Source of the DNA: Mesorhizobium sp. B2-1-8
Lineage (GTDB): Bacteria > Pseudomonadota > Alphaproteobacteria > Rhizobiales > Rhizobiaceae
Assembly (NCBI RefSeq): GCF_006442545.2
Contig: NZ_CP083952.1
Span: 3,821,501 to 3,885,500, forward strand
Length of the DNA stretch: 64,000 nt
Reading direction: 5' to 3'
A program made the position numbers and the translations under genes. The stretch's first letter is position 1; each line of letters starts with the position of its first letter. The notes beneath the pieces are model-generated. The model worked only from the letters and a program-made list of their open reading frames with translations, ran no database searches and had not been told where the DNA came from. Positions 52,721 to 57,180 of the stretch are shown in pieces.

Positions 52721-52957
52721 ATGAAGGCGTTTTTCGTGCAGATCAAATGCGAGCTGGGCAAATCCTATGAGGTTGCCAGCGCGCTTGCCGACGCCGAGAT
52801 CGCCTCGGAAATCTATTCCACCGCCGGCAATTACGATCTGCTCGCCAAATTCTATGTCGACGATGAGGAAGACGTCGGCCATTTCGTCAACGAGAAGGTG
52901 CAGATTCTTCCCGGCATCAAGGACACGTTCACCGTCGTCACCTTCCGCGCCTTTTAG
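52721..52957 (+). CDS. Stand-alone Lrp/AsnC-type RAM domain protein
   Basis: A 78-residue protein consisting only of the Lrp/AsnC effector-binding (RAM) domain: FFVQIKCELGKSYEVASALAD, EIYSTAGNYDLLAKFYVDDEEDVGHFVNEKV, GIKDTFTVVTF. The DNA-binding helix-turn-helix of Lrp is absent, as in the SMLA group that assembles into rings and binds amino acids. Its role in the cell is unclear. It has its own upstream region of about 240 bases. Confidence 0.87.
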   Translation: MKAFFVQIKCELGKSYEVASALADAEIASEIYSTAGNYDLLAKFYVDDEEDVGHFVNEKVQILPGIKDTFTVVTFRAF

Positions 52958-53104
52958 CAGCGCGAGGCATTTGCCCGGGCATGAGGCAAAGCCTGATCAA
53001 GCTCATATTTTAGCTGCCTCAATTTTAAGCAGCCGCAACATACTGATCGTCCGCATCTCCCAAATCACCGATTGCGCTTGATTTTCTCCGACGACGCCAG
53101 TGAA

Positions 53105-54541
53105 ATGGCGTCACAGGGGAGTATGCGATTGGCCGCGTTCGATGAAATGCTTCCGGAGGTCTCCGGACTTAGAAGACCATATTCGGCTTACGATCGCTGG
53201 CTGAAGGAGCAGGATCCAGCCAGACTTACCGAAAAGATGCAGGATGCCGAACGCGTCTTCCGCAAGACCGGGATCACGTTTGCGGTCTACGGCGAGCAGG
53301 AAGCATCCGAACGGCTGATCCCTTTCGATATCGTTCCCCGCATCATTTCAGGCAATGAGTGGCGCCGCCTGACGCAAGGCATCGAGCAACGCGTACAGGC
53401 GCTGAACGCCTTCCTCGACGACATCTACCATCGCCAGGAAATCCTTCGCGCCGGCCGCGTCCCCAGGGACCTGATCGCCAGGAACGAGGCGTTCCTCCCG
53501 GAAATGATTGGCGTGCGGCCGCCGGCCGGCGTCTACACCCACATCATCGGCGTCGACATCGTGCGTATCGGCGAGGACGAGTTCTACGTGCTGGAAGACA
53601 ATGCGCGCACGCCGTCCGGTGTCTCCTACATGCTAGAGAACCGCGAAACGATGATGCAACTGTTCCCCGAGCTGTTCCAGAAGATCAAGGTGCGGCCGGT
53701 GGAGAATTATCCGCAGCTGCTGCGCCAGTCGCTGGCGGCGGTGCGGCCACAAGGCACCAAGGGCGCGCCGACCATCGCGGTTCTGACGCCCGGCAGTTTC
53801 AATTCCGCCTATTTCGAACACGCCTTCCTTGCAGATCAGATGGGCGTGCAACTGGTGGAGGGGCAGGATCTGCGCGTCGTCGACGGCCATGTCGCGATGC
53901 GGACGACCGAAGGCTACAAGCAGATCGACGTTCTCTACCGCCGCGTGGATGATTCTTTCCTGGACCCGCTGACCTTCAGGCCGGATTCGGCCCTTGGCAT
54001 ACCCGGCATCATGGATGTCTACCGCGCCGGCAATATCACCATCGCCAATGCGCCGGGAACCGGCATTGCCGACGACAAGGCGATCTATTCCTACATGCCG
54101 GAGATCGTCGAATTCTACACCGGCCGCAAGGCCATCCTCGGCAACATCCCGACATGGCGCTGTTCGGAGCCGGACAGCCTGAAATATGTGCTCGAACACA
54201 TCCACGAGCTTGTGATCAAGGAAGTGCATGGTTCCGGCGGCTACGGCATGCTGGTCGGCCCGGCGGCGACCAAGAAAGAATGTCAGGATTTTGCCAAGAA
54301 GCTGCAGGCCAAGCCGTCTAATTACATCGCCCAGCCGACGCTCGCGCTCTCGACCTGTCCGATCCTGACTGAAAAGGGGCTGGCGCCGCGCCACGTCGAC
54401 TTGCGGCCTTATGTGCTGGTTTCCGACCGCATCCAGATCGTGCCTGGTGGGCTGACGCGTGTCGCGCTGAAGGAAGGCTCGCTGGTTGTCAATTCCTCTC
54501 AGGGCGGCGGGACGAAGGATACGTGGGTGCTGGATGATTAA
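53105..54541 (+). CDS. Circularly permuted ATP-grasp protein (COG2308) of an Anbu operon
   Basis: A protein of about 478 residues, type 2 circularly permuted ATP-grasp (DUF404/DUF407 family). Visible segments include RPYSAYDRWLKEQ, NAFLDDIYHRQEIL, FYVLEDNARTPSGVSYMLENRE, VIKEVHGSGGYGMLVGP (the ATP-grasp Lys/Gly loop) and RHVDLRPYVLVSD. ATP-grasp proteins form amide bonds between a carboxylate and an amine. It leads a four-gene run with alpha-E, transglutaminase-like and Anbu. The start is uncertain: ATG 53105 or 53123, or TTG 53072. Confidence 0.88.
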   Translation: MASQGSMRLAAFDEMLPEVSGLRRPYSAYDRWLKEQDPARLTEKMQDAERVFRKTGITFAVYGEQEASERLIPFDIVPRIISGNEWRRLTQGIEQRVQALNAFLDDIYHRQEILRAGRVPRDLIARNEAFLPEMIGVRPPAGVYTHIIGVDIVRIGEDEFYVLEDNARTPSGVSYMLENRETMMQLFPELFQKIKVRPVENYPQLLRQSLAAVRPQGTKGAPTIAVLTPGSFNSAYFEHAFLADQMGVQLVEGQDLRVVDGHVAMRTTEGYKQIDVLYRRVDDSFLDPLTFRPDSALGIPGIMDVYRAGNITIANAPGTGIADDKAIYSYMPEIVEFYTGRKAILGNIPTWRCSEPDSLKYVLEHIHELVIKEVHGSGGYGMLVGPAATKKECQDFAKKLQAKPSNYIAQPTLALSTCPILTEKGLAPRHVDLRPYVLVSDRIQIVPGGLTRVALKEGSLVVNSSQGGGTKDTWVLDD

Positions 54542-54546
54542 AATGG

Positions 54547-54657
54547 GTGAGTAGGGAATAGTCAGTAGTCAGTAGTGGAAGCAGAGGGGACAGGGAAATG
54601 CCATATTCCGTTGAAATTCAATCGCTTGCTATTCGCTGCTCGCTATTCCCTACTCAC
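54547..54657. repeat. Miniature element with 15-bp inverted ends inside the Anbu operon
   Basis: GTGAGTAGGGAATAG (54547-54561) and CTATTCCCTACTCAC (54643-54657) are perfect inverted ends of a 111-base stretch. The interior has tandem AGT-AGTC repeats near the left end and a TATTCGCTGCTCGC near the right. The stretch fills most of the gap between the ATP-grasp and alpha-E genes. Size and ends fit a MITE-like or hairpin repeat. Confidence 0.6.
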
Positions 54658-54676
54658 TAGCCCGAAGGGCCATTCC

Positions 54677-55618
54677 ATGCTTCTCGGCCGCACCGCCAAC
54701 GGGCTCTACTGGATGAACCGCTATATCGAGCGGGCGGAAAACATGGCGCGGCTGGTCGACGCCGGGCTGCGCATGGCGCTGACCCGCACCCAGAATGCGT
54801 CCGAGGAATGGAATTCGGTGCTGCTCAGCGCCGGCTCCGACGTCGCCTTCAAGCAGAAATACCCGGACTATACGGCGGCCAATGTCTCTGATTTCCTTTT
54901 GCGCGACACGTCGAACCCATCGAGCACGATGTCGTCGATCGAGACTGCCCGCAACAATGCGCGCATGGTGCGCACCGCGCTGACGCGCGAGACCTGGGAG
55001 AGCATCAACGAAGCCTGGATGGCGCTGAAACGGATGCTGGCGAGGCCGATCGACGAGCGCGACCTGCCCAACGTGCTCGACGCGATCAAGCGCGAGACCG
55101 CGCTGATCCGTGGCTCGTTCTACGGTACCATGCTGCGCAACGAGATTTTCGATTTCTCGCAGCTCGGCACCTATGTCGAGCGCGCCGACAACACCGCGCG
55201 CATCCTCGACGTGAAATACTACGTGCTGTTGCCGTCGATCTCATGGGTCGGCTCGACGCTCGACAACTATCAGTGGGAATCGATCCTGCGCTCGGTATCG
55301 GCGCATCGCTCCTACCGCTGGGTCTACGACGCCGACTACAAGCCGACCAATATCGCGGACTACCTGATCCTCAACGTCCGCATGCCGCGGTCGCTGACCT
55401 TCTGCTATCGCTTCCTGGCAGAGCATCTGAAGTTCCTCTCCGACGACTATGGCGAGCGCCATGCGTGTCACGCAACGGCGGAAAAGACGCAGGCAATGCT
55501 GAGGGCAGGGTCGATCAAGGATATATTCGACACCGGTCTGCATGAGTTCCTGGCCGGGTTCATCCGCGACAACACCAGGCTCGGCGACGAGATCGCGCAG
55601 GACTACAGGTTTTATTGA
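54677..55618 (+). CDS. Alpha-E domain protein (COG2307)
   Basis: A 313-residue, largely helical alpha-E protein. It opens LLGRTANGLYWMNRYIERAENMARLVDA, a strongly conserved family start, and later has a second YVERADNTARILDVKYY repeat of the same pattern, which suggests two related halves. The family always appears beside ATP-grasp and transglutaminase-like genes and is thought to be a structural or binding partner of the ATP-grasp enzyme; no activity is known to me. The start is at 54677, 19 bases after the inverted-repeat element. It is 7 bases before the next gene. Confidence 0.88.
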   Translation: MLLGRTANGLYWMNRYIERAENMARLVDAGLRMALTRTQNASEEWNSVLLSAGSDVAFKQKYPDYTAANVSDFLLRDTSNPSSTMSSIETARNNARMVRTALTRETWESINEAWMALKRMLARPIDERDLPNVLDAIKRETALIRGSFYGTMLRNEIFDFSQLGTYVERADNTARILDVKYYVLLPSISWVGSTLDNYQWESILRSVSAHRSYRWVYDADYKPTNIADYLILNVRMPRSLTFCYRFLAEHLKFLSDDYGERHACHATAEKTQAMLRAGSIKDIFDTGLHEFLAGFIRDNTRLGDEIAQDYRFY

Positions 55619-55625
55619 GGAAGCC

Positions 55626-56417
55626 ATGCGGCTGAAAATCACGCACCGGACCGAATACCGCTACGACGCACCGGTGCAGTATTTGCTTCAGAGGCTGCGA
55701 CTTCTGCCCATGAGCGGTCCGACCCAGACCGTGCTGTCCTGGGCGCTGAAGGTCGAAGGCGCGCGCGAGGAAGTGCGATTTTCCGACCATTTCGGCAACG
55801 ATAACAGGCTGTTGAGCGTCGAAGGTGACCACGACTTCATCACAGTCGAAGCGTTGGGCGAGGTGGTGACGCGCGATACATCGGGCGTTTGCGGGCCGCA
55901 TCAAGGCTTCGCGCCACTCTGGTTGTTCGCGCAGGAAACCGCTTTGACCACCATAGGCGGCGGCATCCGTGATCTTACCGAGGCAATCGGCAAGGGCAAC
56001 GACCTCGAAAGGCTGCATCGGCTGATGGCCGCCATCGGCGAACGCGTCGCCTACACGCCGGGAACCACCAATGCGACAACCTCGGCCGAGGAGGCCTTGG
56101 AGCTGAAAACCGGCGTTTGCCAGGATCATAGCCACATTTTTGCCGCCGCCGCGCGCGCCATGGGATTTCCGGCCCGCTACGTCAGCGGCTATCTGATGAT
56201 GGATGCGGTGGAGCAGGCGGCGAGCCACGCCTGGGCCGAAGCCCATGTCGCGGGCCTCGGTTGGGTTGCCTTCGATCCCGCCAACGGTATTTCTCCCGAC
56301 GAACGCTATGTGAAGGTGGCCACCGGCCGCGACTACCGTGACGCTTCGCCGGTGTCGGGAATTCGGCTGGGACAGGCGGAAGAACTGCTTGCGGTCACCG
56401 TCACGGTAGAGCAGTAA
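55626..56417 (+). CDS. Transglutaminase-like cysteine hydrolase (COG1305)
   Basis: A 263-residue papain-like enzyme with an intact catalytic triad: Cys165 in GVCQDHSH, His201 in SHAWAEAH and Asp217 in FDPANG. The N-terminal half has the transglut_N pattern (LKITHRTEYRYDAPVQ...LRLLP). Bacterial members mostly hydrolyse or transfer amides. GAGG precedes ATG 55626. It sits between alpha-E and Anbu, and its start is a short step after the alpha-E stop, so all four are cotranscribed. Confidence 0.92.
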   Translation: MRLKITHRTEYRYDAPVQYLLQRLRLLPMSGPTQTVLSWALKVEGAREEVRFSDHFGNDNRLLSVEGDHDFITVEALGEVVTRDTSGVCGPHQGFAPLWLFAQETALTTIGGGIRDLTEAIGKGNDLERLHRLMAAIGERVAYTPGTTNATTSAEEALELKTGVCQDHSHIFAAAARAMGFPARYVSGYLMMDAVEQAASHAWAEAHVAGLGWVAFDPANGISPDERYVKVATGRDYRDASPVSGIRLGQAEELLAVTVTVEQ

Positions 56418-56448
56418 TCCCCCAGGGATTGCTGCCTTAAGAGATTCC

Positions 56449-57180
56449 ATGACCTATTGCGTCGGCCTCAAGATCGATCGCGGGCTCGTGTTCATGTCGG
56501 ACACGCGCACCAATGCCGGCATGGATTCGATCTCGACCTTCAAGAAGATGCATGTCTGGGAACAGCCTGGCGAGCGTGTCATCGTCTTGATGTCGGCCGG
56601 CAATCTGGCGACGACGCAGGCCGTGGTCAGCCTGCTCGACGAGCGCACCAAGGCGGTGACCGACCGGCACGAGAAGCTGCTCGAAACGCCGTCCATGTAC
56701 CAGACGGTGCGGTTGGTTGGCGACACGGTGAAAGAGGTGATCGCGCAGTCGTCGCCCGCCGGCGAGAAGGCCGATTCCTATTTCAATGCCTCCTTCATCC
56801 TCGGCGGGCAGATCAAGGGCAGCCCGCCGCGCCTTTTCATGATCTATCCCGAAGGCAATTTCATCGAATCGACCGACGACACGCCGTTCTTCCAGATCGG
56901 CGAAACCAAATACGGCAAACCGATCATCATTCGCGCCTACGAAAAGACGATGAGCCTCGCCGCGACGGTGAAACTCCTGCTGGTGTCGTTCGATTCGACG
57001 TTGAAGTCGAACCTGTCGGTCGGCTTGCCTCTCGACCTGCTTTTCCTGGAACAGGACGCCTTTCAGGTCGGCCTGAAAAAGCGGATCGCCCAGGACGATC
57101 AGTATTACCGCACGATCTCCGACGGATGGTCGAATGCCCTAAAGACGGCTTTCGCCAGTTTGCCGGATTTTCCTGGCTAG
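56449..57180 (+). CDS. Proteasome-like peptidase Anbu (COG3484)
   Basis: A 243-residue N-terminal-nucleophile hydrolase of the Anbu class. MTYCVGLKIDRGLVFMSDTR leaves Thr as first residue after Met removal, with the following Lys and Asp placed as in proteasome beta subunits. FKKMHVW and VIVLMSAGNLATTQAVVS are family-specific. Anbu proteins form open rings or spirals, and proteolysis has been hard to show for most of them. It ends the four-gene operon, 31 bases after the cysteine hydrolase. Confidence 0.92.
   Translation: MTYCVGLKIDRGLVFMSDTRTNAGMDSISTFKKMHVWEQPGERVIVLMSAGNLATTQAVVSLLDERTKAVTDRHEKLLETPSMYQTVRLVGDTVKEVIAQSSPAGEKADSYFNASFILGGQIKGSPPRLFMIYPEGNFIESTDDTPFFQIGETKYGKPIIIRAYEKTMSLAATVKLLLVSFDSTLKSNLSVGLPLDLLFLEQDAFQVGLKKRIAQDDQYYRTISDGWSNALKTAFASLPDFPG

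Follow-up and report, generated by a model that had tools for sequence, protein, structure and literature searches.

Glutathionylspermidine synthetase/amidase pairs an ATP-grasp ligase with a papain-fold cysteine amidase, and it is the nearest working analogue of the four-gene system described here. This system lies on the forward strand at positions 53105-57180 of a 64,000-nucleotide stretch of DNA (the window, G000:C1:3821501-3885500) from the two-contig, 6.87 Mb genome of Mesorhizobium sp. B2-1-8. It encodes a circularly permuted (CP) ATP-grasp protein, an Alpha-E protein, a transglutaminase-fold cysteine hydrolase (TG) and Anbu, all intact. In families and order these are the genes of the canonical published "Anbu operon", to which the available text of the reports describing it assigns no function (PMC5666114, PMC6376114). 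The operons of Yersinia bercovieri, Pseudomonas and Hyphomicrobium share the four families, their order and the Anbu residues Thr1, Asp17 and Lys32 (PMC6376114, PMC5666114). Anbu itself is discussed as an early proteasome relative, and the available passages report no substrate or activity for it. The window differs from the published operons in a 135-base hairpin region between genes 1 and 2, and the genome has a further locus that lacks Anbu and whose ATP-grasp is predicted to be dead.

Membership in the glutathionylspermidine synthetase/amidase family fails, because the operon has no GSP_synth domain and its hydrolase is on a separate TG-fold protein. GSP_synth (PF03738) had no match in the whole genome, and the window ATP-grasp, which matched only CP_ATPgrasp families, belongs to a different Pfam family and is accompanied by the extra proteins Alpha-E and Anbu. 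What it has in common with this enzyme and with trypanothione synthetase (TryS) is the motif Asp...Glu-x-Asn-x-x-x-Pro-Ser/Thr. In Burkholderia cenocepacia, I35_5080-5083 has consecutive genes for DUF404/407, DUF403 and TG, as in the window, and is NtrC and sigma54 dependent, but its fourth gene encodes a large TG protein in place of Anbu (PMC5491218). RimK/RimB and RloABC also combine an ATP-grasp with a peptidase, and Rlo has an inactive transglutaminase as well. They differ in that the ATP-grasp is RimK-like, the peptidase aspartic and the inactive transglutaminase membrane-bound, and Alpha-E is not mentioned in the available part of that report (PMC12239564).

We consider the most likely mechanism of the operon to be a cytosolic cycle that makes and breaks an amide and is used at nitrogen scarcity, with a probability of roughly 0.4.

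The operon and its predicted amide ligase

The operon begins with the gene for a type 2 CP-ATP-grasp of 478 amino acids (aa) at 53105-54541, followed by Alpha-E (54677-55618, 313 aa), TG (55626-56417, 263 aa) and Anbu, a proteasome-fold N-terminal-nucleophile hydrolase (56449-57180). The intergenic gaps are 135, 7 and 31 bases. Pfam placed CP_ATPgrasp_2 (PF14403, 555 bits) at 53126-54538, Alpha-E (PF04168, 312 bits) at 54677-55615, Bact_transglu_N (PF08379) with Transglut_core (PF01841) at 55626-56414 and Proteasome (31 bits) at 56449-57177; no operon protein was named above the family cut-offs of NCBIfam. Among solved structures, the ATP-grasp matched 3N6X (664 bits), TG had its best match in 3ISR (E 7e-16) and Anbu matched chains 5LOY, 5NYJ, 5NYF, 5NYW and 5LOX over residues 1-242, nearly full length. 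Sequence similarity to these chains is what bears on a split-ring (lock-washer) assembly of the window Anbu. The operon start at 53105 is supported because each of the 13 Mesorhizobium-type rows, the window's among them, has its ATG, in frame in 12 by eye (the exception, L056, is one base off), while at 53126 eight of the 13 have ACG or TTG in place of ATG.

For each window protein we built an alignment with its relatives at fetched loci, giving 69 ATP-grasp, 69 Alpha-E, 64 TG and 68 Anbu sequences with the window included. These sets exclude fusions, TG proteins longer than 800 aa, a pair of duplicate loci and a pair of short TG fragments. The TG residues C165, H201 and D217 were kept in 62/64, 64/64 and 64/64 sequences, and the Anbu residues T2, D18 and K33 (mature Thr1, Asp17 and Lys32) in 67/68, 68/68 and 68/68. 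The initial annotation, made from the letters of the window, had named these four genes as an adjacent and co-oriented set known from comparative genomics, with spacings of 7-31 bases between the last three and intact catalytic residues in TG and at the N-terminal Thr of Anbu. The domain and solved-chain matches, the coordinates, the alignment counts and the published operons (PMC5666114, PMC6376114) agree with it in each of these respects.

In the ATP-grasp, D151, E164, N166, K325, K372 and G378-G381 were kept in 69/69 window-type sequences, as were R168, R434 and R452. Profile comparison by hhalign with 12 GSP_synth proteins yielded a single local match of 27 columns, weak overall (E 0.1, probability 0.6 out of 100), which sets D151, E164, N166 and S171 in register on the GSP_synth motif R-x-D...E-x-N-A-D-T-P-T/S. 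The Asp...Glu-x-Asn magnesium motif of glutathionylspermidine and trypanothione synthetases is thus present in the window protein, at a weak overall profile score. A modelling study of TryS has Asp330, Glu344 and Asn346 binding two Mg ions, Lys513 and Lys548 binding phosphates and Ser351 binding the acyl carboxylate (PMC3581523); we matched its numbering to the motif by spacing. Because the magnesium-motif residues are invariant in 69/69 sequences and in register with those of GSP_synth and TryS, the window ATP-grasp looks like an active ligase. In a published assay, phosphate was released from ATP by the Y. bercovieri ATP-grasp (PMC6376114).

In the proposed cycle, the ATP-grasp would phosphorylate a carboxylate and couple it with an amine. 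As a helical partner built of two repeats, Alpha-E would sit on the ATP-grasp and help to hold or shape the substrate. TG would cut the amide bond so formed or one next to it, like the amidase half of glutathionylspermidine synthetase/amidase, and Anbu would be an optional second amidase or peptidase acting on the product. Physical contact between Alpha-E and the ATP-grasp may be expected because the two are fused in the paralogous locus described below. The reaction and its direction are inferred, as are its substrate, the cytosolic location of the cycle and nitrogen control in this species.

Co-occurrence of the genes and the place of Anbu

We counted the families in a phylum sample of 200 genomes, with CP-ATP-grasp and Bact_transglu_N counted over family cut-offs. 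Anbu was present in 69 genomes, Alpha-E in 112, CP-ATP-grasp in 113, Bact_transglu_N in 109 and DUF2126 in 63, and all 63 of the last carried Alpha-E. Anbu and Alpha-E occurred together in 68 genomes, Anbu alone in one (G094), Alpha-E without Anbu in 44 and neither in 87 (Fisher p 6e-22, phylogeny not corrected). Among 67 fetched Anbu loci, which comprise neither the window's own nor a fragment in G149, Anbu was at most 8 kilobases (kb) from Alpha-E, alone or fused, in 58 and farther away in 9, and 40 had the canonical four-gene order on one strand. At the best 80 of 595 named ATP-grasp loci, mostly from Alphaproteobacteria, Alpha-E was found in 80, TG in 79 and Anbu in 60, so the four-gene association is not due to chance. 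Gaps of at most 50 bases, measured from the first possible start codon, separated 119/150, 111/122 and 63/100 gene pairs.

In a genus sample of 146 genomes, Anbu was present in 136 and absent in 10, DUF2126 was absent in 17 and both were absent in 8; nine genomes had Anbu without DUF2126. Three of the eight double-loss genomes (G228, G229 and G270) had no CP-ATP-grasp match, and the other five (G194, G197, G256, G289 and G333) had two. G194 and G197 retain the ligase, Alpha-E and TG but have no Anbu between TG and the decarboxylase gene, and tblastn detected no remnant of it. The one-contig genome G265 has DUF2126 and only a fused ATP-grasp, as does G315, which is 79% complete; G227 and G262 were not resolved. 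Given these patterns and the genomes with Alpha-E and no Anbu, Anbu is an optional, accessory addition, and the window-type locus and the fused locus can each exist without the other. We did not use the joint loss of Anbu and DUF2126 (8/146, Fisher p 2e-7) as proof of linkage: three of the eight genomes lack any CP-ATP-grasp and the other five may be one lineage.

These counts also bear on a rival view in which Anbu acts in the cytosol as a peptidase in its own right, with no tie to the ligase and hydrolase pair beyond a common promoter. The nine distant copies are consistent with this, some of them adjoining housekeeping-like genes such as mutS (named by reading the sequence, with no family search), as is G094, which has Anbu and no match to Alpha-E or CP-ATP-grasp. 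However, 68 of the 69 Anbu genomes carry Alpha-E, and we regard independence as quite improbable. The G094 copy lies at G094:C88:6053-6775 (L102), and that genome has a GSP_synth gene, which may be coincidence. Two other Anbu genes, from genomes of the genus (G283:C1:3634068-3634792 and G222:C79:88466-89193), were read as two overlapping pieces, possibly through frameshifts or assembly errors. Anbu genes with 47% identity were also seen on CAKLQH020000004.1 and CAKLQF020000002.1, records of 232-306 kb that carry the label Acinetobacter phage MD-2021a and may be bacterial sequence.

The initial annotation had also proposed a search for co-occurring genes. The core genes Alpha-E, TG and Anbu recur, and a fifth gene of at least 80 aa was not found. 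Clustering of open reading frames of at least 80 aa returned, in its best 45 clusters, mostly apparent antisense shadows and genus synteny. A Pfam scan of 104 neighbouring proteins, chosen by hand from 400 listed and at least 110 aa long, gave no family more than five times (25 of 144 families shown). As neither approach gave a recurrent gene, a carrier or precursor gene of at least 80 aa appears not to be part of the set. The reading of the initial annotation, a ligase with hydrolases acting on a peptide or a tagged protein, is partly supported. Its ligase and its two hydrolases are intact; no such gene is conserved beside the operon, and a peptide or tagged protein as the substrate is unsupported.

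The same result bears on protein tagging and untagging, in which the ATP-grasp would add a short tag or an amino acid to proteins, TG would remove it or form cross-links and Anbu would degrade or trim the tagged proteins, as in a minimal system like ubiquitin or Pup. Anbu is proteasome-like and the idea is in print (PMC6376114), with a precedent in RimK/RimB, where an ATP-grasp that works with a peptidase adds glutamates to a ribosomal protein (PMC12239564). Against tagging, no conserved carrier gene of at least 80 aa lies in or beside the operon (carriers of 60-70 aa fall outside the scope of the search), no AAA+ gene is among its two immediate neighbours in the window, and published assays recorded no activity on proteasome substrates (PMC6376114). 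We consider tagging unlikely.

We judge it similarly doubtful that the operon makes a storage compound or a natural product of small-peptide or amide type, with TG and Anbu serving in maturation rather than scavenging. This would be close to the original comparative-genomics proposal of Iyer et al. 2009 (via PMC5666114, PMC6376114), and the conservation of the ATP-grasp, with 83 of 478 positions fully invariant over the 69 sequences, fits one fixed small substrate. However, the neighbour scan leaves no fixed transporter or tailoring gene, and the operon is chromosomal and near-universal in the genus (Anbu in 136/146), unlike a secondary-metabolite cluster.

A paralogous locus with a predicted pseudo-ligase

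The second locus of this genome, at G000:C1:2028470-2035198 (L033:4471-11199), encodes a TG-DUF2126 protein (1137 aa), a fusion of CP-ATP-grasp and Alpha-E (803 aa) and a small TG, and carries no Anbu. We compared 152 fusions, of which 12 and 20 came from the genome samples and 120 from a protein search (70 at least 80% identical to the fusion of this genome). At the Mg-site positions, E164 was kept in 2/152 (Asp in 10) and N166 in 0/152. D324, D432 and N463 were kept in none and K325 in one, and of the glycine loop G378 was kept in 2, G379 in 27, Y380 in 5 and G381 in 3 of the 152. The loss was not total in each protein, with K372 kept in 53 and position 151 being Asp in 53 and Glu in 77. D106, P170, G172, R180, E238, R434, G449 and D472 formed a fixed core in 152/152, and S171 was kept in 148/152. 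Dereplication at 60% identity left 24 fusions with the same pattern: E164, N166, D324, Y380, D432 and N463 were kept in 0/24, the eight core residues in 24/24 and S171 in 20/24.

Because the core residues are kept throughout while the Mg and glycine-loop residues are lost, the fold and probably the acyl site appear to be under selection in the fusion, with the Mg/ATP site gone. The fused ATP-grasp looks dead and is a predicted pseudo-ligase. Conserved loss of ATP-grasp catalytic residues, named in the initial annotation as evidence against a ligase route, is thus a feature of the fused paralogue and not of the window orthologues, which are intact in 69/69.

The TG triads at the fused loci are intact: in the large proteins C is kept in 34/34, H in 34/34 and D in 32/34 (two gaps), and in the small proteins the triad is kept in 33/33. 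The large TG-DUF2126 gene, whose DUF2126 part is a putative amidoligase, was on the fetched stretch at 27/32 fusion loci, and in L127 it was on a different contig. The sites are likewise lost in the fusions of G194, G197, G024 and G126, genomes that lack DUF2126, and therefore DUF2126 is not the sole possible reason for the loss. Strict dependence of the fusion on the active pair was considered and dropped, as G265 has the fusion and DUF2126 with no standalone ATP-grasp. In the 200-genome sample, among the matches listed, every genome with a second, fused copy had a standalone Alpha-E, except the fragmentary G149.

Alpha-E, the partner present at both loci, has two similar halves. Residues 1-145 and 146-313 aligned by hhalign with a probability of 99.2 (E 6e-20, score 118.9), compared with a maximum score of 19.8 over 100 column shuffles and 15.7 for a reversed half. 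Each half has one Glu-Arg motif (E18R19 and E168R169). Judged by this alignment of its halves, Alpha-E is an internal tandem duplication. By sequence it had no relative in the PDB below E 0.4, and a scan of viral contigs for Alpha-E gave no match. Neither the duplication nor the inactive fused ATP-grasp was found in the available text of the literature on the operon, a set that does not include Iyer et al. 2009.

Taken with the make-and-break cycle, the paralogue suggests a broader but tentative reading, somewhat doubtful in our estimate, in which the family would serve nitrogen stress with an amide cycle of two modules, the active pair and the pseudo-ligase fusion, that have Alpha-E as their common platform. 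The fused pseudo-ligase would keep the acyl-substrate and core residues and DUF2126 would usually supply the ligase chemistry. In both modules Alpha-E would present the substrate to any ligase and hydrolase available there.

Upstream regions and nitrogen limitation

A 12-position sigma54 consensus, with GG and GC required, was scored over the 300 bases preceding each of 151 standalone ATP-grasp genes, window included. Sites matching 11 or 12 of the 12 positions were found upstream of 31 genes, compared with 3 on the reverse strand and 1 inside the gene. Over 40 rounds of dinucleotide shuffling the mean was 2.2 and the maximum 5; the loci are related, so the 31 are not independent events. Upstream of 37 fusions there was 1 such site, with 0.3 expected from mononucleotide shuffles. 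On the megaplasmid mpAca1.1 of Acidithiobacillus caldus (NZ_CP005987, L237:10018-38027), Alpha-E, ATP-grasp, TG and Anbu lie on one strand. At a distance of about 4 to 14 kb past Anbu come ntrB, ntrC, glnA, amt and two genes for P-II, and an aliphatic amidase lies on the opposite side. This cluster is one instance and lies among insertion sequences.

The link to nitrogen is already in print; the enrichment of upstream sites and the A. caldus island lend it further support. The DUF404/407, DUF403 and TG genes of B. cenocepacia are expressed in an NtrC- and sigma54-dependent manner (PMC5491218), a Bradyrhizobium CP_ATPgrasp gene is listed with a sigma54-type box upstream (PMC13207237) and Anbu (COG3484) is in a predicted sigma54 regulon (PMC12316311). 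Anbu was up in Pseudomonas putida under nitrogen limitation (cited in PMC5666114), and in marine metagenomes urea-metabolism domains were associated with the domains of these operons (PMC3597751). The control region in part of the relatives thus points to nitrogen limitation, though not in the window's own genus.

Several observations weigh against the nitrogen-linked amide cycle. The window operon has no -24/-12 site, and no GG-N10-GC at all, in the 300 bases upstream, and of the other 12 Mesorhizobium-type loci 11 score at most 9 and L139 scores 10 of 12. Nitrogen control is therefore not established for this species. Most of the sample, 120 of the 151 standalone loci, has a score under 11. 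The 25 families seen most often among the 104 neighbours include none for nitrogen assimilation, and no family occurs more than five times. In published work, Anbu showed no peptidase activity on standard or proteasome substrates, and pull-downs revealed no specific contact among the operon proteins (PMC6376114).

In the window itself, a block at 53062-53086 on the forward strand (AAATCACCGATTGCGCTTGATTTTC), with small changes only across the 13 Mesorhizobium-type rows by eye, is promoter-like and is perhaps an ordinary promoter. The neighbour upstream (52721-52957) encodes a short protein of 78 aa that matches the Lrp/AsnC ligand-binding domain alone, and downstream of Anbu lies a pyridoxal phosphate (PLP) decarboxylase gene. 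The first gap of the operon (54542-54676, forward strand), on which the initial annotation is silent, is long and carries a strong hairpin, with a minimum free energy of -59.5 kcal/mol and z -5.9 over 54539-54680 and arms like GTGAGTAGGGAATAG / CTATTCCCTACTCAC. A similar sequence is found in the same place over most of its length in seven Mesorhizobium-type loci and in pieces in three more, and elsewhere in the genome it has four short partial matches of 25-34 bases. Rfam at gathering thresholds gave no match in the window. The hairpin is perhaps a genus-specific palindromic repeat.

The operon is real, intact and already known, and alone it is of modest novelty. The parts most worth following are the predicted pseudo-ligase paralogue and the duplication of Alpha-E. 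The comparative results point to a condition, nitrogen limitation in a species with a sigma54 site, and to a strain in which product would accumulate, with both hydrolases removed and the ligase kept. The paralogue without the Mg site would serve as a natural negative control. With these, the question of what Anbu does, open since about 2008-2009, becomes directly testable.

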